From: Burkholderiales bacterium Ga0077544
GTDB lineage: Bacteria; Pseudomonadota; Gammaproteobacteria; Burkholderiales; Burkholderiaceae_D
Direction of reading: 5' to 3'
Assembly (NCBI GenBank): GCA_001464355.1
Contig: LNEU01000033.1
Span: 248,001 to 312,000, forward strand
DNA length: 64,000 nt
The notes under the pieces were generated by a model. The model made no database searches, was not told where the DNA came from, and saw only the letters and a program-made list of their open reading frames with translations. Shown in pieces: positions 3,969 through 15,671 of this stretch. A program made the position numbers and the translations under genes. The stretch's first letter is position 1. Every line of letters begins with the position of its first letter.

Positions 3969-4006
3969 GCCCGCAGCGCAGTTGGCAAACCCTCTGCGCT
4001 GCGGGC
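3969..4006. repeat. Perfect GC-rich inverted repeat, 13-bp arms
   Basis: The arms GCCCGCAGCGCAG (3969-3981) and CTGCGCTGCGGGC (3994-4006) pair perfectly with a 12-nt loop. As RNA this is a very stable hairpin in the leader between dnaN and gyrB. No T-tract follows, so an intrinsic terminator is unlikely; transcript processing, attenuation or protein binding are possible. Confidence 0.65.
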
Positions 4007-4236
4007 AGGCAAGTAGCCAGTGAATTGCAGGCTTGTTGGCAGTTCACTCAATCGTTTCAAGTATTTGCGGTCAAGGCGGCACTTTCCGAGTGACGCCATC
4101 ATCGTGAATTAAGTAGCAGTTATGTCGCAACATGAGTAAGAGGCCAAGCCAGCGCAGTGTTCCGCGCAAGCCAGTTTGTTCTCCGCCGCCACAAGCCGGA
4201 ACAGCAACGTCCCACTCCCCTCGTTTTGCGCAATAA

Positions 4237-6771
<2,535 letters not shown>

Positions 6772-6790
6772 ATATTCAAGTAGATAGTAT

Positions 6791-6819
6791 AAAAAGCCAA
6801 CCGGCTCGGTTGGCTTTTT
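6791..6819 (+). terminator. Intrinsic terminator of gyrB
   Basis: A perfect 13-bp stem (AAAAAGCCAACCG / CGGTTGGCTTTTT) with a 3-nt loop and a T-run lies 20 bp after the gyrB stop. It separates gyrB from the AT-richer operon that follows. Confidence 0.9.
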
Positions 6820-6918
6820 ATTTGGGATTTCAATTTGTAATGTTGATAGCGGCTTTAATAGAGTTACTAAAGTACAATCTTCGGATCTAAAAGAGACAAT
6901 AAACTGATAAGGGAAGTT

Positions 6919-8433
6919 ATGAGTGCGCCAATTTCCGTAAAAGCAGTTAAGTGCAAGCAATGGTTGGCCGATTGGGATGCGTTTCCTTATCCTGCGGATA
7001 ATCAAAGAAAAAAGCCTGAACCCACAATTTTCCTATTTACGTTATCAGCCAAACAGCTACGAAAGCTGAGTGGAGTATTTGATCGCCGTCGAGATGGAGG
7101 AGATGCTTCGGGAATTCAGCGTGCGCATGAAAAAGGACGCTCTGAAAGCATTAGTAAATACGTGCGTAATGGGTACCCTTTCTGTGATTTATCCTCAAAA
7201 ATGCAGCAAGACCCCGAGAACGATTCGTTAAAAAAACCTGGCTGGCTTCCTACAGCGATCGTGGTTAATTTGTTGGGGCCAGCACAAGAACGCCGCGGGA
7301 AAAAAGTGGCGGGTGATGAGATTGTTGGTGTAAAAAACATTGACGATAATTTGGCAGAGCTTTTATTGCCTGCCGGAAGTGACTCTGCCGAGTGGGAGCC
7401 AGCCGGTATTCCACCGATTGAGATTATTGACGGACAGCATCGACTCTTTGCATTCGATAGCACATCGAGTTTGCCGGATGATTTCCAATTGCCAGTGGTT
7501 GCATTTCATGAACTTGATATCGGGTGGCAAGCTTACCTGTTCTGGTCGATCAATGTTTCGCCGAAAAAGATTAATCCTAGTCATGCATATGATTTGTTCC
7601 CTTTATTGAGAACGCAGGATTGGCTAGAGAAAAGCCCCGCTTCCCATATTTATCGGGAAGCTCGTGCTCAAGAACTTACTGAAATTTTATATCGACATCC
7701 AAATAGCCCTTGGTACAAAAGAATAAATATGCTCGGAGATCGTCGTTCAGGATGGGTCTCTCAGGCGGGATGGGTTCAAGCAATCTTTAATTCTTTTTTA
7801 AGCGCAGGTACAAGTCCGCGAAGCCGAAAAGGTTTGTTTGCCACAAATCTAACTCAAGTTACAGGTCCTTTGCAGTGGAACCGTCCGCAGCAAGCAGCAA
7901 CGCTAATCTTTTTCTGGTCGGAATTAAAGCTGGCGATCAAAAATACTAAAGCTTCATGGGCTCAGGCTTTGCGAGAACAAGAAAAAGTTATTGAACTTGG
8001 CGATGATTTTGATCCGGCTTTTCATAGTTCGTTGTCGCTTCTAAATCAAGAGCAAGGTGTTCGAGCCATCGGTTTAACCATTAACGATATTTTGTTTCCT
8101 CTGGCTGAAAAGCTTGGTCTTGATGAATGGAATTTCACAGATGTTGATGTTGGTGAAACGAAAGATGAGGATGTAGAGGCCAGTCTCCAAAATTTAGCTA
8201 GTCAGCCATTTGCGGAAACGCTTCAAAAAATTGCTCAGACACTTGCGGAATTTGATTGGCGTTCTGCGAATGCTCCCAATTTAACTCCGGAGCAGCAATT
8301 AGAAAGAGCTAGTTACCGAGGTACTGGCGGTTATAGTCGCCTGAGGGCCGCGCTGTTAGCGCACCTCTCTAGTGCTAATGGTGAATATGCGCAGGTCGCA
8401 GGAAATCTTCTATCCGCTAGTAAAGCCAACTGA
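6919..8433 (+). CDS. DGQHR-domain (DndB-like) protein, first gene of putative DNA-modification operon
   Basis: This 504-residue protein starts at ATG 6919 behind an AAGGGAAG ribosome site. The diagnostic motif is IEIIDGQHRLFAF, with DGQHR at residues 171-175. Ahead of it is a segment with the IQRAHEKGRSESISKYV and LPTAIVVNLLGP patterns seen in DGQHR/DndB proteins (an R...I..Yv helix followed by a beta strand). DndB regulates DNA phosphorothioation operons, and related DGQHR proteins occur in varied modification and defence loci, but the biochemical role of the domain is not established. No dndCDE partners are present. The next gene follows after 8 bp and a D12 methyltransferase ends the operon. 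Base composition is visibly richer in A and T than the flanking gyrB, suggesting horizontal acquisition. Confidence 0.8.
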   Translation: MSAPISVKAVKCKQWLADWDAFPYPADNQRKKPEPTIFLFTLSAKQLRKLSGVFDRRRDGGDASGIQRAHEKGRSESISKYVRNGYPFCDLSSKMQQDPENDSLKKPGWLPTAIVVNLLGPAQERRGKKVAGDEIVGVKNIDDNLAELLLPAGSDSAEWEPAGIPPIEIIDGQHRLFAFDSTSSLPDDFQLPVVAFHELDIGWQAYLFWSINVSPKKINPSHAYDLFPLLRTQDWLEKSPASHIYREARAQELTEILYRHPNSPWYKRINMLGDRRSGWVSQAGWVQAIFNSFLSAGTSPRSRKGLFATNLTQVTGPLQWNRPQQAATLIFFWSELKLAIKNTKASWAQALREQEKVIELGDDFDPAFHSSLSLLNQEQGVRAIGLTINDILFPLAEKLGLDEWNFTDVDVGETKDEDVEASLQNLASQPFAETLQKIAQTLAEFDWRSANAPNLTPEQQLERASYRGTGGYSRLRAALLAHLSSANGEYAQVAGNLLSASKAN

Positions 8434-8441
8434 GGACTCTG

Positions 8442-9794
8442 ATGCGACCTCGGAACCTTTCTCCTTATGAAAAAGGAGTGATATTGCAGGCGGATAGAAG
8501 CGCAGTAGTTGATGCCTTGCAGACTTTTTTTTCGGATGGTCACGATAGCTGGGCTCCTTTAATAACCCGTACCAGCGATGGAATTAAATTCAATAACAAG
8601 CCGGGCCAAAGGGATTCACTAAGCTCTATTGAAATTGCTCAATTTTTAGGAATGGCTGGACCAACTCATTGCGCGAACGGATGGGCGTTTTTTTCTAGAG
8701 CTTTGAATAGTGCGCTTTCAGGGGATTCTCACGCAGCATGGCATTTTGCATACTATGCAGAGCTTAGAGCTGCGCAGTCTATTTTGGCAGCGAGTGGAGT
8801 TGGTGTATTTGATAGTTGGAATTGCGTATTAAATGCAGCAGGGTCTTGCAAAGTAATAGATGATCCCAATCAAAATAGGGCTTTGCCAACTCATGTAATG
8901 ACCTGGCAAGGTATGCGTGCATTGTTGGATCCCTTAAATCCATCGGCCGAAAGCATTTCAAACGCAATTACCTTTCATGGAAATAAATTAGGAGAAATTG
9001 TCTCGAAGGCTTTCCCAGGTACTCCAAGTTGGAGAAATACTTTTACCTGGATTACTTCATGGCTGTTTGACCTGGAGCAAGGCCTGAAAGATAAAGCAAT
9101 GAGAAATCGTTGCAGTTATCAGCCCCATGAATTGACAGAGCATGTTCTGTCTCCGAATGAAGGCATTGATTTCCTAGACCATTTTTGGCTTCTTTTCGAG
9201 CCGGAGCCTGGCGCTACGTTCATAGGTATTGATAAGTATTTGCTGCGCGATGCTCTTACAACAGAGGCTACAAATAAGCTACGAGTAGCAGGGGTCTTGA
9301 ATGCAACTCGTGCGGATATCAAAGAAGAATTGGAAGTCGCATATGAACGTTTGGAAGCATCGTTTCCAAACTTACATTTGTCTCAAGATTTCATTGTCAG
9401 AAACGTAAATAAGGCGGAGCCCAGAATTCTCGTGGAGGCAAGAGATAGAACCGCTTTGCCGACCACACCTTTGCCCATTTTGGCGAGAGCGAGTTTGTTT
9501 TTAAGACTGGCAACTGGTATATCAAAAAATCTTTTAATTGATGCTGGCGTGCGACAACCTGAACAATTAGATTTTTGGCTTCAAGGATTAGCCCGCGAGA
9601 GGGGCTTTGTTAGCTCGACTATTGATATTGATAGTTGGGGGGATTTGTTCTACGAATTGCAAGTTGCAACCGAAGACCTCGTTAGTTTGAAAAAGGACGG
9701 CGAGAAAATTGAGCGTGCTGAACTTTTGATGAATATAAGTACTCATCGGGCTTGTGAGGCCGAGAGAGCGGTATTTTGGGGGCTGGCAGTATGA
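8442..9794 (+). CDS. Unrecognised 450-aa protein of the DGQHR-methyltransferase operon
   Basis: I do not recognise a family. The protein is soluble-looking, with no signal peptide or membrane segment, and rich in aromatic residues. Residues about 98-120 (HAAWHFAYYAELRAAQSILA) form an amphipathic helix of the type seen in helical-bundle proteins, and a second helix block around residues 345-365 (ILARASLFLRLATGISKN) is hydrophobic. No PD-(D/E)xK, HNH or Walker motif was found by eye. A GAGG ribosome site overlaps the stop of the upstream gene (8 bp gap), and the stop overlaps the start of the methyltransferase in an ATGA arrangement. The three genes must therefore be co-translated. It is the likely effector or specificity partner of the system, but that is inference from position only. 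Confidence 0.75.
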   Translation: MRPRNLSPYEKGVILQADRSAVVDALQTFFSDGHDSWAPLITRTSDGIKFNNKPGQRDSLSSIEIAQFLGMAGPTHCANGWAFFSRALNSALSGDSHAAWHFAYYAELRAAQSILAASGVGVFDSWNCVLNAAGSCKVIDDPNQNRALPTHVMTWQGMRALLDPLNPSAESISNAITFHGNKLGEIVSKAFPGTPSWRNTFTWITSWLFDLEQGLKDKAMRNRCSYQPHELTEHVLSPNEGIDFLDHFWLLFEPEPGATFIGIDKYLLRDALTTEATNKLRVAGVLNATRADIKEELEVAYERLEASFPNLHLSQDFIVRNVNKAEPRILVEARDRTALPTTPLPILARASLFLRLATGISKNLLIDAGVRQPEQLDFWLQGLARERGFVSSTIDIDSWGDLFYELQVATEDLVSLKKDGEKIERAELLMNISTHRACEAERAVFWGLAV

Positions 9795-10936
9795 AGTACA
9801 TGGGTTCGAAAAGGTCCATGCTGGGGAATGGCTTAGGAGAGCTTTTGGCGGGTGTTTTGCCTGACAAGCAGCGTTTCGTAGATCTTTTTTGTGGGTCCGG
9901 AGCGGTGTCTGCTCATGTTGCTGAGAACATGCAGATTGAAACGGCAGCGTTTGATTTGCAACAGTACGCAGTTACTCTTGCTCAATCGTCACTTGGGAAA
10001 ATACATGAAATTAAATCGAAGGATTTATGGTCTCGTTGGGTAGCAAGAGCAGTAGAGTGGATAGACGAATTTGATGTCTTTGGTGATGCAGTGATGTTAT
10101 CAAACGAAGCTATTGTAGTTAATCATAAGAACGCCGTTGCTGCAGTTAAAAGAGCGAGAATTTTCTGCGAAGATCTTCCAGACAAGTTTGTGATTTCGAG
10201 AGCTTATGGTGGCTATTATTTTAGCCCGCTTCAAGCTTTGACCATTGACGCTTTACGTGCAAGTGTTCCTAGAGGCGTTTCACGGACGTCTGCCATTGCC
10301 GCATTGATTCGTTCTGCAAGTCGTTGTTCAGCGTCGCCCGGGCATACGGCACAACCATTTTCCTTAACATCTACCGCGACTCCCCATCTAATTTCTGCTT
10401 GGAAAAAAGATATAGCGCAGCACACGCAAAATGAATTTAAGAATGCATGTGAATCATTTGCGCTTGTCTTAGGAGAGGCAAATGTGGCTGATGCTGTAGA
10501 TGCGACTGCGACATTGCGAGAAGGAGACTTAGTATTTCTAGACCCTCCATATTCTGAAGTACAGTACAGCCGGTTTTATCATGTACTTGAGGCTATTGCT
10601 CAAGGATATATAGGCGATGTTTCGGGAACTGGTCGCTATCCAGCCATTGAGGAAAGGCCGCAATCGCGTTTTTGCCGCACTACGCAATCTTTAGAAGAGT
10701 TGGATCGTTTAATGATTGGTGTTGCTGCCTCTGGTGCAGAAGCAATAGTAACTTTTCCTGCGGACCAAGCTTCAAATGGGCTTAGTGGGATTTTAGTAGA
10801 GGCAATTTCTAGCCAATATTTTCATATTCAAAAAAGAAAAATTTCATCTAGTTTTAGTACTTTAGGTGGAAACACGCGCAGCAGAGCTGCGAGAAAACAG
10901 GCTACAGAATTATTGCTGCATTTGACGCCGAGATAA
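9791..10936 (+). CDS. D12-class DNA adenine-N6 methyltransferase-like protein
   Basis: This 381-residue protein begins MKYMGSKRSML, the start typical of D12-class adenine methyltransferases. The SAM-binding motif is DLFCGSGAV (residues 31-39), and the catalytic motif is DPPY at 251-254 within VFLDPPYSEVQYSRFYHVLE. That last pattern resembles the COG3392-type adenine-specific methylases. SAM motif first and DPPY later is the expected order. The ATG at 9791 overlaps the upstream stop (ATGA), which fixes the start; an upstream TTG at 9776 is unlikely. No restriction endonuclease follows. Its role is probably to mark host DNA, with the two upstream genes acting on unmarked DNA or controlling modification. 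Confidence 0.85.
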   Translation: MKYMGSKRSMLGNGLGELLAGVLPDKQRFVDLFCGSGAVSAHVAENMQIETAAFDLQQYAVTLAQSSLGKIHEIKSKDLWSRWVARAVEWIDEFDVFGDAVMLSNEAIVVNHKNAVAAVKRARIFCEDLPDKFVISRAYGGYYFSPLQALTIDALRASVPRGVSRTSAIAALIRSASRCSASPGHTAQPFSLTSTATPHLISAWKKDIAQHTQNEFKNACESFALVLGEANVADAVDATATLREGDLVFLDPPYSEVQYSRFYHVLEAIAQGYIGDVSGTGRYPAIEERPQSRFCRTTQSLEELDRLMIGVAASGAEAIVTFPADQASNGLSGILVEAISSQYFHIQKRKISSSFSTLGGNTRSRAARKQATELLLHLTPR

Positions 10937-11339
10937 CCTTTGCGCGTAAATATTGATTCTATGGGAACCCTCTGATCTGATATCGGTTTGTGCTTCTTAC
11001 GTTTTTGTTTGATGACATTGCCGTTATGGTCTTCAGCACGCCATTGTACTGACACGCAGTACCCAAGCTAGTCGCCTTTGTCAGTCCGGACAATTAGCCA
11101 CTTGACTGAACACAAAACTACCGCGATTGTCACGTTTTCTATTGTCGAAAATTGTCGTTGTTGTGGACCTTTCTAATGAGTTAACGGAGAAAAGTAATAC
11201 ATCGTGCCCCAGATGTAAAAGGCCACTCCGATCAGCTGCCATTAAGTCGTTCTAAATCATGAACTTTCCCCGCCTAGATCATCTCTACCAGAGGTAGTTT
11301 CGCCGCTGTGCGGCGACAATAGAAGTATGAAAGCTATGT
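10937..11339. other. Non-coding, decayed stretch behind the methyltransferase operon
   Basis: No intact gene is present in these 403 bp. One part (about 10981-11100) is a degraded copy of the histidine/lysine-rich protein gene found at 15879-16151, listed separately. The next segment includes a 30-codon GTG frame (11163-11255) with a CPRCK motif that I do not accept as a gene. The stretch leads into a decayed zinc-ribbon gene, so the whole 10.94-11.71 kb block looks like degraded coding sequence. Confidence 0.5.
10981..11100 (-). pseudogene. Fragment of a histidine/lysine-rich exported-protein paralogue
   Basis: On the minus strand this reads QWRAEDHNGNVIKQKRKKHK, close to the C-terminal part of the protein encoded at 15879-16151 (QWRAEDHHDHGNNKSHKKHK). 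The DNA also aligns: both contain tgtgcttctt, then a T-rich stretch, then a variant of cttctgcgcgccattg and further on agtcg. The signal-peptide end is gone and an in-frame stop lies just upstream of the matching part. I read it as the remnant of a duplicated gene. A chance match of low-complexity K/H codons is possible for the tail but not for QWRAEDH. Confidence 0.55.
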
Positions 11340-11710
11340 ATGAAAACGTTCCACTGCAACAAGAGTTATCAGCAGATATTTTTTGAGAACGTCCATTGTG
11401 AGAAGTGCGGCAGCATGCTCGGCTATCAGCCTGAGCACCAGACCGTAAGTGCATTTGAGCCTGCCGGACCGGATCGTTGGGCCAGCCTCAGCCCTGTGAA
11501 TGCGGGCATGCATTACAAGTAGTGCGCGAACTATTCTGGGGAGCATGTCTGTAACTGGATGCTGCCTGCTGATTCGAAGACGTCGCTATGTGCGTCCTAC
11601 CGGTTAACCAGAATTATCCCCGCGCTGTCGTATGGCAAAAACCGCCTGTTTTGGAATCGGCCAAGCGGCGATTGCTTTATACGCTTTGGGATTTGCACTT
11701 GCAGCCGACC
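11340..11710 (+). pseudogene. Decayed N-terminus of a zinc-ribbon / putative metallopeptidase (COG4307-like) gene
   Basis: The frame begins MKTFHCNKSYQQIFFENV and continues CEKCGSMLGY and SAFEPAGPDRWASLSP, matching the zinc-ribbon start of the family with a C-terminal peptidase-like domain. A TAG at 11520-11522 interrupts it. Straight after, the same frame continues CANYSGEHVCNWMLPAD and YRLTRIIPALS, all family-typical. Around 11645-11655 the reading frame shifts and the match resumes as ESAKRRLLYTLWDLHLQP until about 11710, where it ends; the roughly 200-residue catalytic part is missing. Two zinc ligands also appear lost (CNKSY and CASY where CxxC is expected). So there is one stop, one frameshift and a truncation. 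Family assignment is from memory of its motifs. Confidence 0.75.
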
Positions 11711-11741
11711 AGATCCTGCACCTTTGCATTCCCATAAAAAG

Positions 11742-11765
11742 AAAGGTCCGCATATGCGGACCTTT
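11742..11765 (-). terminator. Palindromic terminator, probably for the 58-aa gene
   Basis: A perfect 24-bp palindrome (AAAGGTCCGCAT and its complement) is flanked by T-rich sequence on both strands. On the minus strand it begins 27 bp after the stop of the gene at 11792-11968 and is followed by TTTCTTTTT, so it most likely ends that transcript. Confidence 0.8.
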
Positions 11766-11791
11766 TCTTTGTCATGAGCTGATCGTGCTGC

Positions 11792-11968
11792 TTATGACTT
11801 ATCGTCGTTTTCTTTTTCTTTCTCTTCTTCGACTTCAGGCGTGTCGACTATATGCGGCTTCTTGCCTGGTTGTGGTGCGTGTTCTGCGCCGGGAAAAGCT
11901 TCTTCTCCATTATGCTTTTTCTCTTGCAGGACTTTTTTGTCGTGGGCGACGTTGCGTGGGTCTGTCAT
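11792..11968 (-). CDS. 58-aa highly charged hydrophilic protein
   Basis: This small gene starts MTDPRNVAHDKKVLQEKKHN and ends with an acidic/lysine run (EVEEEKEKENDDKS). It has a good ribosome site (AGAGGAAAAACC before ATG 11968) and a strong terminator after the stop. It has no hydrophobic segment and looks intrinsically disordered. I do not recognise the family and cannot assign a function; signals at both ends make it a real gene. Confidence 0.7.
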   Translation of the reverse strand: MTDPRNVAHDKKVLQEKKHNGEEAFPGAEHAPQPGKKPHIVDTPEVEEEKEKENDDKS

Positions 11969-12077
11969 GGTTTTTCCTCTTAAGTGTTTGCTGTCGAATA
12001 AACCGGTACTCGATCGTTATCTGTAATTGCGATTGACGATCTCTAGCGGATATACAGCGAGGGGATAACCGTAACAC

Positions 12078-12111
12078 CTCACGCAGTGCAACAGTGCGTT
12101 GCCTGCGTGAG
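12078..12111. repeat. Strong hairpin in spacer
   Basis: The arms CTCACGCAG (12078-12086) and CTGCGTGAG (12103-12111) pair, and inside them GCAAC pairs with GTTGC, giving a 14-bp stem with a single T bulge. It lies 82 bp beyond the stop of the minus-strand phosphoesterase gene. There is no T-run, so this may be an RNA 3'-end stabiliser or weak terminator. Confidence 0.5.
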
Positions 12112-12192
12112 TGGACTTCTCATTTGATCGTAGGACAAGCTGCGCTTCCAGGCATTGTGCCGCCCAGAGGCGTCAGCATCGATCAGCGTCGA

Positions 12193-12996
12193 TCAGCGTC
12201 GTTGCATGTCGACGCTATTGGCCAGCACAAAATCACCTGCGTCTTCGTTGTAGTCCCAGCGCTCGACCACACACTGCAGCGGCGCATTCTCTACACCGTA
12301 ACGAATCAGATTGATCGAGTTGTTGGAGTCGTGGCGTATGCGTGACGATACCGCCGTCCCTGCCTGCACTGCCCACACGCGTCGCGGCAGATCCGCATGC
12401 TCATGCAATGCAGCGATGAAGGGTCGATGAATATGGCCGCCGAGTATCAGATCGACGCCCGCTTCTGCCCATCTGTTGATAGCTTGTTGATGCCCGCGCA
12501 GCAGATGTTCTTCATCGATGGCATGCGTGACGTGCACAGGCTGATGCGTGACGACGATGCGCAATTGTTTGTCGCCGGCTTGCTCTAGTCGTTGCGCAAC
12601 GCGTGTGATCTGCGCGCTGGATACTTCGCCTTCGATGTGGCGGTAGCGACGCGTGGTGCGCACGGTGATTACCAGCAGTTCGGGCGAGTCGTGGATGGGT
12701 TCCAGCTCGGAGCCAAACGCGCGGCAGTAACGTGAGTAGGGCAGAAAGATGCGGGTCGCCAGATCGAACAGGGGAATGTCATGGTTGCCGGCGATGGCGA
12801 CTCTGGCGGGAGTCGCAAGACGCTCGACAAAAGCATGAGCCGCTTTAAACTCGATGGCGCGTGCGCGTTGCGTGATGTCGCCTGACAGGATGAGCAGATC
12901 GGGTGTCTGCGCATGTGCCAGCCGCTCCAGTGCGGTGACGACGTGTGGCCGTTCGGTGCCGAAATGGGTATCGGAAATGTGCAGTACCGTCTTCAC
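12193..12996 (-). CDS. Calcineurin-like metallophosphoesterase
   Basis: This 267-residue soluble enzyme has the classic dinuclear-metal phosphoesterase motifs in order: DTHFG near the N-terminus, SGDITQ, GNHD, HQPVH and GGHIHRPF. It should hydrolyse a phosphomonoester or phosphodiester; family members include CpdA-like cAMP phosphodiesterases and lipid-related phosphatases, and the substrate cannot be told here. The start is GTG 12996, which overlaps the stop of the upstream lipid-kinase reading frame by 4 bp (GTGA), so translation is coupled. That pairing suggests a shared lipid or envelope-phosphate role. Confidence 0.85.
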   Translation of the reverse strand: MKTVLHISDTHFGTERPHVVTALERLAHAQTPDLLILSGDITQRARAIEFKAAHAFVERLATPARVAIAGNHDIPLFDLATRIFLPYSRYCRAFGSELEPIHDSPELLVITVRTTRRYRHIEGEVSSAQITRVAQRLEQAGDKQLRIVVTHQPVHVTHAIDEEHLLRGHQQAINRWAEAGVDLILGGHIHRPFIAALHEHADLPRRVWAVQAGTAVSSRIRHDSNNSINLIRYGVENAPLQCVVERWDYNEDAGDFVLANSVDMQRR

Positions 12997-14095
12997 GCGG
13001 CATTGCCTCCGGATGCAATGTTATCTTCCGCGCTGTTGTCGCTGATGGTCTTGCTCGCTGCTGTCGCGTTACTCTGTTCGCCGCTTGCCTCGGATGTGTG
13101 GCGGCGCTTGATCAGCATAAGCGGCTCGGCGGCTACGCGAAATTCCAGCGGTGTGCGCAACCACATGATTTCACCATCGGCGGCGACCTTGATCTGGTTT
13201 TTGTGCGACTTCTTGCTTGTGCTGTTAGGTGATGTGGCGGTCGGGGTTTTTGTGCCGCGCAGCTTTCTGCGCGGTGCAATAGTCAGTTCGCGAAAACTGA
13301 AGCCGATGACATTCTCGGCATCGCCCAACTTACCCAATGCGCCGCGTGCACCCAGCCATAGCATCGCGAGCTTGCCGACCGGGCGCACGGCAATCGCTGC
13401 CAATTGTCCTTGCACAACCGCGTCTGCCTGCGGCATGCCGACTTGTTCAAGCTGCAGCCGATTATTGCCGACGAATAGTGTGGTGGTGCGCATCACTACG
13501 CGCTTGCCGTCTTGCTCTAGCGTGATGTGCAAGTGCCGGTGACGGCCGAACACGGTGGCGATTGCTGACCAGATCGCGACCAGTCGGCTGCGACCATATT
13601 TTTGTTTGAAGGCTTCTCTGTCTTCCAGCAGTTCCGGATACAAACCCACACTCGCATTGACCAGAAAAATGTGGTCATTCACTTGCCCGACTTGTACCGG
13701 CACCGGTGCGCCTTGCAGCAGATCCTGCAGCGAGTCGGCGATCTCTTCAGGGATGCCGTGCGTACGGCCGAAATAATTGAAAGTGCCTTGCGGTATCGCA
13801 CCGAACAGGCAGCCACTACCCAGTACGGTATTTGCCACTGCGTTGATCGTGCCGTCGCCACCGACGGCGACAACCACCGCGCCCTGCTCCTTTGCGGCAT
13901 CAACCGCCTGTTGACGGTTGTCTGGATCTGGCTCACGTCTTCAATCACAAATATGCGATGCGCACGTGCGGCCGCTTGCATGGCCGCGGCTATCGTATCG
14001 CGCGTCTCGTCGGCGTCATGACGACCCGAACCACCGTTCATTACAAAGAATAACGGCGGTTCGGAATTGTGCGGTTGGGGCAGATGTGGATTCAA
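12993..14095 (-). pseudogene. Diacylglycerol/lipid kinase-family gene with an apparent frameshift
   Basis: Two frames together encode one DAGK-catalytic-domain protein. The first frame (TTG start at 14095) gives the N-terminal beta strand and glycine loop, FFVMNGGSGRHDADETRDTI, up to HRIFVIED. The second continues EPDPDNRQQAVDAAKEQGAV and then VVAVGGDGTINAVANTVLGS with the ATP-binding GGDGT motif, running to 12993. The junction lies at about 13934-13943, where one base appears to be missing. The family phosphorylates diacylglycerol, sphingoid or similar lipids. The downstream frame has no good start, so the protein is probably not made in full. A sequencing error is possible, since the rest is well conserved and the GTGA coupling to the phosphoesterase is kept. 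Confidence 0.8.
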
Positions 14096-14381
14096 TTTGC
14101 TTCAAAAATTGTGTGGAACGTCAGTGGACGGTGGTCTTACACGTCATGCAGGCAAGTATTACGGTCCGCGCTTCTGTGCCGCCTGAACGTTGAAGGACGA
14201 ACGTATCATTTCGCATCATTCTGGAATGTACGTTTTCGTACATGACAGATGCAATCAACAGGTTGCGTCGACGTCTTGAATACCGTTGCATGCGTGCGCA
14301 TGTGATCTTGCGTACGGAATAAAACGCTATTTATTGTTCAACTGGTCAACATTCCAGTTTATGAATAGATGAGGTCACACC

Positions 14382-15671
14382 ATGAGCACCCCGCCCGCGC
14401 CACCAGACAGGCTGCCGCTACCCGCGTCAGTCAGCGAAATCGACCGCGTGGCCAGAGTGCCACGCGAGTCGAACGGCATCTCGCCGAAAGAGATAGGCAT
14501 CGGCATTGCGTGTGCCGTTGGGGTGGGCTACGCCCTCAAGCAAACCTTCAAGAACAAGCCCCCCACACCACAGCAGCCTGAAAAGCCGCAGCCGCGTCAT
14601 TTAAAAAGCCCGGATAAAGACGACATCAGTTTGCCGCATCAAGTCATTCTGTTTTTAAAACTACTGCTGCCGGTCGTGCTGGCGTCGGACCCGCCGCCCA
14701 AAGCGCAAGCCACTATCGATGCGAGCGGCAACGCAACCGAATTGCCGGAGCAATATCAAAAGGATGCAGCGCCGCAGATCGTGCATGCCGCAAGGGGCAG
14801 CCGCTTTCAGCAGGCATGGCAACTCGTCAAGGCCGCCGTCAATGCGTGGATAGATGATTTTGCGCCTAGCATGGGTGCCGCGATTGCCTACTACACGATG
14901 TTTTCCATCGCACCGATGCTGGTCATCGCGATCGCGGTGGCGGGCGCGGGCGCAATTTTTGGTCAGGAGGCCGCGCAAGGCGAGATCGTTGCGCAACTGC
15001 GCGGCATCATCGGCGAAGATGGTGCGGTCGCCATTCAAGCGTTGCTGCAATCGGCCAGCCAACCGACTGAAGGCATTATCGCCACCGGCATCAGCATCGT
15101 CACACTCGCGATCGGTTCCACCGCCGTCTTTGCGGAACTGCAAAGCGCCCTCGACCGCATCTGGCGCATGCCGGTCGCGGTAAAGGAAGGCGGCATATGG
15201 AACCTGATTCGCACCCGCCTGCTGTCCTTCGGCCTGATTCTCGGCCTGGGCTTCATGCTGATGGTGTCGCTGGTCGTCAGTGCCGGGCTGGCAGCCCTCG
15301 GCAATTGGTGGGGCAGCTGGTTTGAAGGGTGGGGCATCGTTCTGCAAATCCTCAACCTGGTCATCTCCTTCTTTGTCTTCGCCGGCATGTTCTCTGTCAT
15401 CTACAAATTCATGCCGCGCGTGCGGCTGTCCTGGCGCGACGTCTGGATAGGTGCCGTCGCTACCACGGTTCTTTTCATCATTGGCAAATACCTGATCGGC
15501 CTTTATCTCGGCACTACAGGCATGAGCACCGGCTTCGGTGCAGCGGGATCATTTGCGCTCTTGCTGGCGTGGATTTACTACTCGGCGCAAATCTTTCTGC
15601 TGGGCGCAGAGTTCACGTGGATTTATGCGAATAACTATGGATCGAAGGCGAAGGGTGCGTTACCCGCTTGA
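14382..15671 (+). CDS. YihY/BrkB-family inner-membrane protein with long N-terminal extension
   Basis: This is a 429-residue protein. From about residue 140 it matches the YihY/UPF0761 family: AWIDDFAPSMGAAIAYYTMFSIAPMLVI (helix 1 region, split here between residues 160-190), then AIGSTAVFAELQSALDRIW, and several membrane helices to AWIYYSAQIFLLGAEF near the end. About six transmembrane segments are visible. The first 140 residues are not part of the usual family: a proline-rich stretch, one glycine/alanine-rich hydrophobic segment (GIGIACAVGVGYALKQ) and another short hydrophobic run (ILFLKLLLPVVL-like). The molecular function of YihY proteins is not settled. A long terminator hairpin follows. 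Confidence 0.85.
   Translation: MSTPPAPPDRLPLPASVSEIDRVARVPRESNGISPKEIGIGIACAVGVGYALKQTFKNKPPTPQQPEKPQPRHLKSPDKDDISLPHQVILFLKLLLPVVLASDPPPKAQATIDASGNATELPEQYQKDAAPQIVHAARGSRFQQAWQLVKAAVNAWIDDFAPSMGAAIAYYTMFSIAPMLVIAIAVAGAGAIFGQEAAQGEIVAQLRGIIGEDGAVAIQALLQSASQPTEGIIATGISIVTLAIGSTAVFAELQSALDRIWRMPVAVKEGGIWNLIRTRLLSFGLILGLGFMLMVSLVVSAGLAALGNWWGSWFEGWGIVLQILNLVISFFVFAGMFSVIYKFMPRVRLSWRDVWIGAVATTVLFIIGKYLIGLYLGTTGMSTGFGAAGSFALLLAWIYYSAQIFLLGAEFTWIYANNYGSKAKGALPA

Follow-up and report, generated by a model that had tools for sequence, protein, structure and literature searches.

The three genes that lie directly behind gyrB in a 64,000-nucleotide stretch of the Burkholderiales bacterium Ga0077544 genome (contig LNEU01000033.1, positions 248,001 to 312,000; hereafter the window) probably form a self-contained, mobile and restriction-modification-like defence system, in which a DNA methyltransferase (gene 3) would mark self, a DGQHR-domain protein (gene 1) would sense and a protein that we call MID (gene 2) would attack unmarked DNA. 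A defence role is well supported by the genomic context, and we infer NTP (nucleoside triphosphate) use, sensing, DNA damage and protection against phages for the trio. It probably represents a kind of restriction-modification-related immunity not described before, distinguished by a new family of effectors and by a marking enzyme that can be exchanged.

Conservation of a two-gene core

A first plasmid search with MID returned five records: a Rhizobium plasmid carries the trio in the same order as the window, and Zymomonas plasmids carry the same genes 1 and 2 with a different, Dam-like methyltransferase (20% identical). A search anchored on DGQHR alone (three-sequence alignment) retrieved 75 loci from species genomes plus 9 from viral contigs; scanning viral sequences with MID returned 11 loci, of which 5 lie on new contigs. 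With the near-copy L087 and the short L002 left out and two plasmid loci added, the set comprises 90 loci (L numbers) other than that of the window; DGQHR was the anchor for 83 of these and MID for 7. The contig ends at most 70 bases behind DGQHR in 3 of the 83; MID follows DGQHR in all 80 remaining ones, and DGQHR precedes MID in 7 of 7 MID-anchored loci. MID thus stands behind DGQHR in 87 of the 87 loci showing both genes, a set that includes near-copies and several loci of one genome or genus; in one of them (L069) about 2 kb of other sequence is inserted between the two. The DGQHR frame is in two pieces in L069, L076 and L077, and these loci may be decayed or contain sequencing errors.

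The core is rare but scattered over bacteria and one archaeon. Record titles assign 69 of the 87 loci to Bacteria and one to Archaea, a Methanoregula metagenome-assembled genome (MAG), with 17 unassigned, and 15 phyla are named, the archaeal one included. MID is present in 2 of 398 genomes of the phylum, source genome included, and the core in 1 of 292 genomes of the cyanobacterial phylum, which is the query genome itself. Genes 1 and 2 had no match in phage records, and the trio had none in E. coli genomes by megablast.

DGQHR and MID are the constant part, co-evolving more tightly together than with D12, the methyltransferase class of the window. Over 53 D12 loci, window included, the DGQHR and MID distances correlate with r 0.89 (reached by 0 of 2000 permutations) and still with 0.78 after removing D12; the DGQHR-D12 correlation of 0.69 drops to 0.11 after removing MID, and that of MID with D12 from 0.74 to 0.38 after removing DGQHR. 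Median identities in these loci are 41% for DGQHR, 25% for MID and 42% for D12.

Two groups of records deserve a remark. The Zymomonas trio is 99-100% identical across four 30,952-bp plasmid records, and L004 (NC_013788.1, pZZM405) is labelled Zymomonas mobilis ZM4, while pZZM401-405 derive from strain CP4 according to an excerpt of PMC5930841. In the Anaerolineaceae MAG that holds L053 (G386), the DGQHR gene is cut by the contig end, and MID stands beside D12 matches on another contig, perhaps as a second copy.

The exchangeable third slot

A modification gene lies beside the core or in the same cluster in 82 of the 87 loci, and this conservation elsewhere shows that the arrangement is not due to chance; two loci have none, and contig ends leave three (L026, L055 and L071) undecidable. 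The original prediction that the three genes belong together is thus borne out in other genomes, with one amendment: a modification gene is conserved, but the D12 enzyme is the exchangeable part rather than the fixed one. The partner is a large D12 enzyme in 52 of the 87 loci, always behind MID and on the same strand (DPPY is found in 53 of 53 D12 partners), a Dam-like enzyme in 20 (four convergent), and an N6_N4 enzyme, upstream of the pair, in 6. The N6_N4_Mtase assignment is confirmed by Pfam for L043, L044, L050 and L051 and comes from our own profile for L048 and L054. Two further loci (L076 and L077) have an MT-A70 partner, which Pfam confirms; both are uncertain, since each has a broken DGQHR. 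A Dnd cluster takes the place of the methyltransferase in two loci (L042 and L040) of one genus.

Partners were found by six-frame search, and the methyltransferase open frame starts at most 71 bases from the pair in 79 of the 80 loci that have one, the exception being L076 (1.2 kb). Where at least 1.5 kb is visible on both sides, 65 of 67 loci have a modification gene. Methyltransferase profiles, which were built from genes of these same loci, gave 76 adjacent matches over loci L003-L088, vs 3 further matches across 1.0 Mb of flanking sequence, of which one scored 21 bits. In the Pseudanabaena locus L042 (3403-15582) the order is dnd_assoc_4, DGQHR, MID, a small reverse open reading frame (ORF), DndC, DndD and DndE; in L040 a dnd_assoc_4 gene 99% identical to that of L042 precedes DGQHR, and DndC and DndD lie 3.7 kb behind MID. 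In L042 the pair thus stands inside a phosphorothioation cluster, and a second DndD-like ATPase is encoded upstream.

The closest solved relatives of the Zymomonas Dam-like enzyme are DpnM (E 2.5e-54) and E. coli Dam, and that of the L051 N6_N4 enzyme is M.RsrI (E 5e-37); the D12 enzyme of the window has no relative in the PDB at E 0.01. DpnM and E. coli Dam read GATC and M.RsrI reads GAATTC, and these relatives hint that the partner enzymes may have different targets. Z. mobilis ZM4 carries the motifs CAGN4CTG, GAAGN7TCC and GANTC in its methylome (PMC8432527); for strain CP4 an additional adenine motif, probably GATC, would be expected from the kinship of its enzyme to DpnM and E. coli Dam.

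On a tree of 91 DGQHR proteins, built by a quick method without bootstrap, the six partner states require 16 changes, a count that takes in the two loci without a partner, the two doubtful MT-A70 loci and L053, where the contig ends and the N6_N4 gene is 2.7 kb away. For the four clear partner types (81 rows) at least 11 changes are needed, where 3 would be possible and shuffling gives a mean of 25.8. By type, there are 9 changes for the Dam-like enzymes (7 forced by starred branches), 11 for D12 (8 forced) and 1 each for N6_N4 and Dnd. Most switches thus exchange a large D12 enzyme for a Dam-like one or the reverse, the two being distantly related within a single Pfam family.

The two loci without a linked modification gene are L019 and L049. 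L019 (7974-10850, a Candidatus Binatus MAG) shows none in the 7.9 kb before or the 6.6 kb behind the pair, and its genome has D12 and N6_N4 genes at other places. In L049 (790-6346, a Bacteroidetes MAG) the DGQHR-MID pair is directly preceded by genes for a PRTase-CE protein and for a reverse transcriptase. Both genomes hold N6_N4 methyltransferase genes elsewhere.

The proteins of the trio

Gene 1 had been described as DGQHR/DndB-like. The first half of this description stands, since the protein passes the curated cut-off of the NCBIfam DGQHR domain TIGR03187 (E 2.7e-21, 76.5 bits vs 58.85); the DndB likeness, however, holds only at the superfamily level, the match to Pfam DndB PF14072 (E 2e-5, 24.3 bits) being below the curated cut-off of 29.1. 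The protein also matches part of the PADLOC DpdB model (E 2.3e-8). The motif D171-G172-Q173-H174-R175 is invariant across 75 sequences and reads DGQHR, not DGQQR. Foldseek weakly matched the structure model of gene 1, which has a predicted local distance difference test (pLDDT) score of 90.6, with N-terminal domains of ParB proteins (7bm8 being the best match of appreciable probability, at 0.82 but with E 0.25), which agrees with an excerpt of PMC4619093 that assigns DGQHR/DndB and DUF262 to the ParB/Srx superfamily. A survey (PMC12704722) describes ATP and GTP binding by a DndB-like protein and a requirement for an arginine in the P motif of the fold in nucleotide binding. R175 of the DGQHR motif may be the counterpart of this arginine, and we propose that gene 1 encodes an NTP-dependent sensor of DNA or its mark.

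Gene 3 was correctly called a D12 adenine methyltransferase with DPPY, as it scores above the cut-off of Pfam MethyltransfD12 PF02086 (E 5.1e-14) and contains this motif. It is proposed to be the self-marking enzyme and the exchangeable part of the system.

MID was originally presented as an unrecognised protein of 450 aa, and so it is: no family in Pfam, PADLOC, NCBIfam or PHROGs matched it up to E 1, and the PDB sequences gave a single chance-level match (E 0.93). In 77 MID sequences, matches at E 0.003-0.008 to three Pfam families and one PADLOC family, in each case by a single sequence, were dismissed as chance. By Pfam, no DUF1524/HNH nuclease domain is present in genes 1 and 2 or in the 77 MID sequences. 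Eleven residues (H76, W81, H101, Y104, Y105, R109, T150, H151, R221, Y226 and R349) are invariant in 77 of 77 sequences and D210 is kept in 76, a set that looks catalytic or enzyme-like. The AlphaFold2 model of MID is mostly helical (pLDDT 92.3, predicted template modelling score 0.93). Its Foldseek leads (best E 0.26 in the PDB and 0.42 in BFVD, none with E <0.2) were rejected as noise, and an origin of MID as a duplicate of gene 1 was ruled out (hhalign probability 0.2%).

A defence hotspot behind gyrB

DNA homology of the window to same-genus genomes ends at the end of gyrB, once 54 bp later (up to 1.5 kb compared), and none of the genus's 12 other genomes contains MID. The post-gyrB site was taken from 11 of these 12 genomes and 20 proteins near gyrB were run through PADLOC, the first ten picked by eye as likely defence genes and the second ten covering the remaining sites. 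Strong matches were obtained at 9 of the 11 sites (Table 1), L128 and L132 giving partial, weak or no matches. The trio therefore sits in a defence hotspot, whose gene content varies between species of the genus, and the defence genes looked for in its neighbourhood are found at this site in same-genus genomes.

No recurrent gene family around the core (families in at least 3 loci) serves as a fourth partner; such families are recombinases/integrases, ABC and MFS transporters, regulators, other housekeeping-type genes and type I restriction-modification. Single neighbours include a DUF4433 plus macro-domain gene on the Zymomonas plasmid and RloB at L071; for the gene that follows the trio in Rhizobium, Pfam gave no match. 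A PADLOC scan of 141 immediate neighbours (147 chosen), run without a control set and descriptive only, matched 238 models at 1e-10, with 1-2 members each among those listed.

Proposed mechanism and relation to known systems

We propose that the methyltransferase would mark the cell's own DNA, that the DGQHR protein, as a member of the ParB/Srx superfamily, would bind DNA and NTP and sense the presence of the mark, and that MID would be an effector which damages or blocks unmarked incoming DNA and is restrained on self DNA. The trio would then work like the fused DndI/SspE or the two-gene GmrSD, with another effector and a repeatedly replaced marking enzyme. That MID damages DNA is suggested by its position, its co-evolution with DGQHR and its invariant residues. 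In the accessible part of PMC11662687, DndI, a ParB-like DGQQR ATPase with an HNH nickase, attacks unmarked DNA, releases marked self DNA and harms cells without the mark, and SspE needs phosphorothioate for activity and is not toxic alone. DndI and SspE are thus a precedent for a ParB-like sensor and a nuclease gated by a mark, which favours the proposed mechanism.

The trio would resemble DndI/SspE in that a putative ParB-like DGQ(Q/H)R NTPase-type domain acts with a self-marking DNA modification, and the L042 core sits among Dnd genes. However, DndI/SspE fuse a ParB-like DUF262 sensor to an HNH nuclease, whereas in the trio the proposed sensor and effector are encoded apart, no nuclease domain is recognised in MID and the usual partner is a methyltransferase. 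GmrS of the type IV system GmrSD has a ParB/Srx fold with a DGQQR motif and is sometimes encoded separately from GmrD (excerpt of PMC4619093); unlike the trio, GmrSD is not tied to a methyltransferase of its own, and GmrD is HNH-like, which MID is not recognised to be. DndB and DpdB belong to the superfamily of gene 1, but gene 1 is below the Pfam DndB cut-off, no dpd genes were seen (the window was not scanned with models of DpdA and DpdC), and dnd genes stand beside the core only in L042 (DndC, DndD and DndE) and L040 (DndC and DndD). Type II restriction-modification systems share the compact operon with an adenine methyltransferase, here identified by PF02086 and DPPY, as well as the patchy distribution and the defence-hotspot site; in contrast to them, the trio has no recognisable endonuclease, and one constant two-gene partner serves different methyltransferase classes. 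The gene set was not recognised in the open-access papers searched on Dnd, BREX, ParB and restriction-modification, preprints and most subscription papers being outside this search. Together with the lack of any match for MID in the libraries used, this leaves the trio unmatched to a named system, and its original description as a self-contained, possibly undescribed modification or defence system is supported by conservation, by the lack of a named match and by the hotspot context.

Several points weigh against the proposed mechanism. Neither a nuclease motif nor a nuclease fold is recognised in MID (library scans, Foldseek against PDB and BFVD), two intact cores (L019 and L049) have no linked modification gene, N6_N4 and Dnd each enter the DGQHR tree once, Dnd in one genus only, and it would be strange for an effector that has to read the mark to share one core with several marks. 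The core might instead be inert without the mark, as SspE is, and attack unmarked DNA once marked self DNA has activated it. The phosphorothioate requirement and lack of toxicity of SspE (PMC11662687, in part) speak for such a variant, and cores that lack a modification gene could be scarce either because they are useless or because they are toxic; the data fit the mark-activated and the mark-inhibited form alike, but different marks would demand several recognition modes in one conserved protein, and we consider this variant unlikely. We likewise give little credence to a role in controlling modification, whereby DGQHR would be a DndB-like regulator and MID would tune or target the methyltransferase for epigenetic marking, not restriction: the Pseudanabaena pair does stand just before DndC, but MID and DGQHR track each other and not D12, the partner classes differ and the site is a defence hotspot. 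It would be quite surprising if DGQHR and MID further altered the methylated base or the DNA, as the ParB-like DpdB assists DpdA in 7-deazaguanine insertion; the partial DpdB match of gene 1 and the enzyme-like invariant His, Tyr and Arg of MID are compatible with such hypermodification, but no DpdA-like gene is among the families recurring beside the core (in at least 3 loci) and the partner chemistry varies.

Within the restriction-like mechanism that we prefer, it is tempting to speculate, although we doubt it for now, that the core is plug-and-play, that is, one two-protein effector with a new-fold DNA-damaging enzyme that is licensed by different self marks. These would be adenine methylation (by several enzyme classes), phosphorothioate and perhaps N4-methylcytosine; the single tree entries of N6_N4 and Dnd lower the odds of this idea. 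If it is true, self-recognition would not depend on a single fixed methylated motif. A restriction effector usually belongs to one mark or one sequence, and a constant core that occurs in turn with large D12, Dam-like and N6_N4 methyltransferases and with phosphorothioation genes raises the question of how one effector respects different marks. MID also adds a conserved family with enzyme-like invariant residues and no match in the libraries searched to a gene set compact enough for transfer as a whole into laboratory E. coli; surveys built on models like those of PADLOC 2023, none of which matches MID, would overlook the system.

Features of the locus

The trio follows gyrB (4264-6771), is intact and occupies the positions originally given (Table 1).

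Table 1. Genes of the trio in the window and strong PADLOC matches at the post-gyrB sites of same-genus genomes.
Feature	Position	Strand	Match
Gene 1, DGQHR-domain protein, 504 aa	6919..8433	+	TIGR03187 above cut-off
Gene 2, MID, 450 aa, uncharacterised mostly helical family	8442..9794	+	no library match
Gene 3, D12-class adenine DNA methyltransferase, DPPY, 381 aa from ATG 9791	9791..10936	+	PF02086 above cut-off
Type I methyltransferase and restriction enzyme	L124, post-gyrB		PADLOC strong
PD-Lambda-2 B and C	L125, post-gyrB		PADLOC strong
Retron II-A reverse transcriptase and NDT	L126, post-gyrB		PADLOC strong
SIR2 and HerA	L127, post-gyrB		PADLOC strong
Drt3a and Drt3b	L129, post-gyrB		PADLOC strong
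Drt3b	L130, post-gyrB		PADLOC strong
Retron VI reverse transcriptase	L131, post-gyrB		PADLOC strong
Type I methyltransferase	L133, post-gyrB		PADLOC strong
LmuB (Lamassu-type)	L134, post-gyrB		PADLOC strong

The tight coupling claimed for the three genes is evident from the coordinates: 8 bp separate genes 1 and 2, and in the ATGA at 9791-9794 the stop of gene 2 overlaps the start codon of gene 3. Called mechanically, the ORF of gene 3 begins at TTG 9776 (386 aa); the ATG in the table is the likely start because the Rhizobium and L002 homologues align from MKYMGSKR. The GC content is 43-47% across 7001-11000 vs 53-61% across 4001-6500 (gyrB), in agreement with the AT-richer base use reported relative to the flanking core genes. 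The absence of restriction endonuclease, dndCDE and BREX genes also holds on reading the ORF list of 4000-14500 by eye, in which none of these, including DndC, DndD, DndE, PglZ, BrxC and PglX, was noticed; no model search of every ORF, nor one for PglZ, BrxC and PglX, was made. Counts of promoter-like and terminator-like sequences show no excess over chance. Behind the trio, in gene-poor DNA, a 60-aa remnant at 11340-11519 (+) matches the zinc-ribbon family PF10005 and is probably the decayed start of a longer gene.
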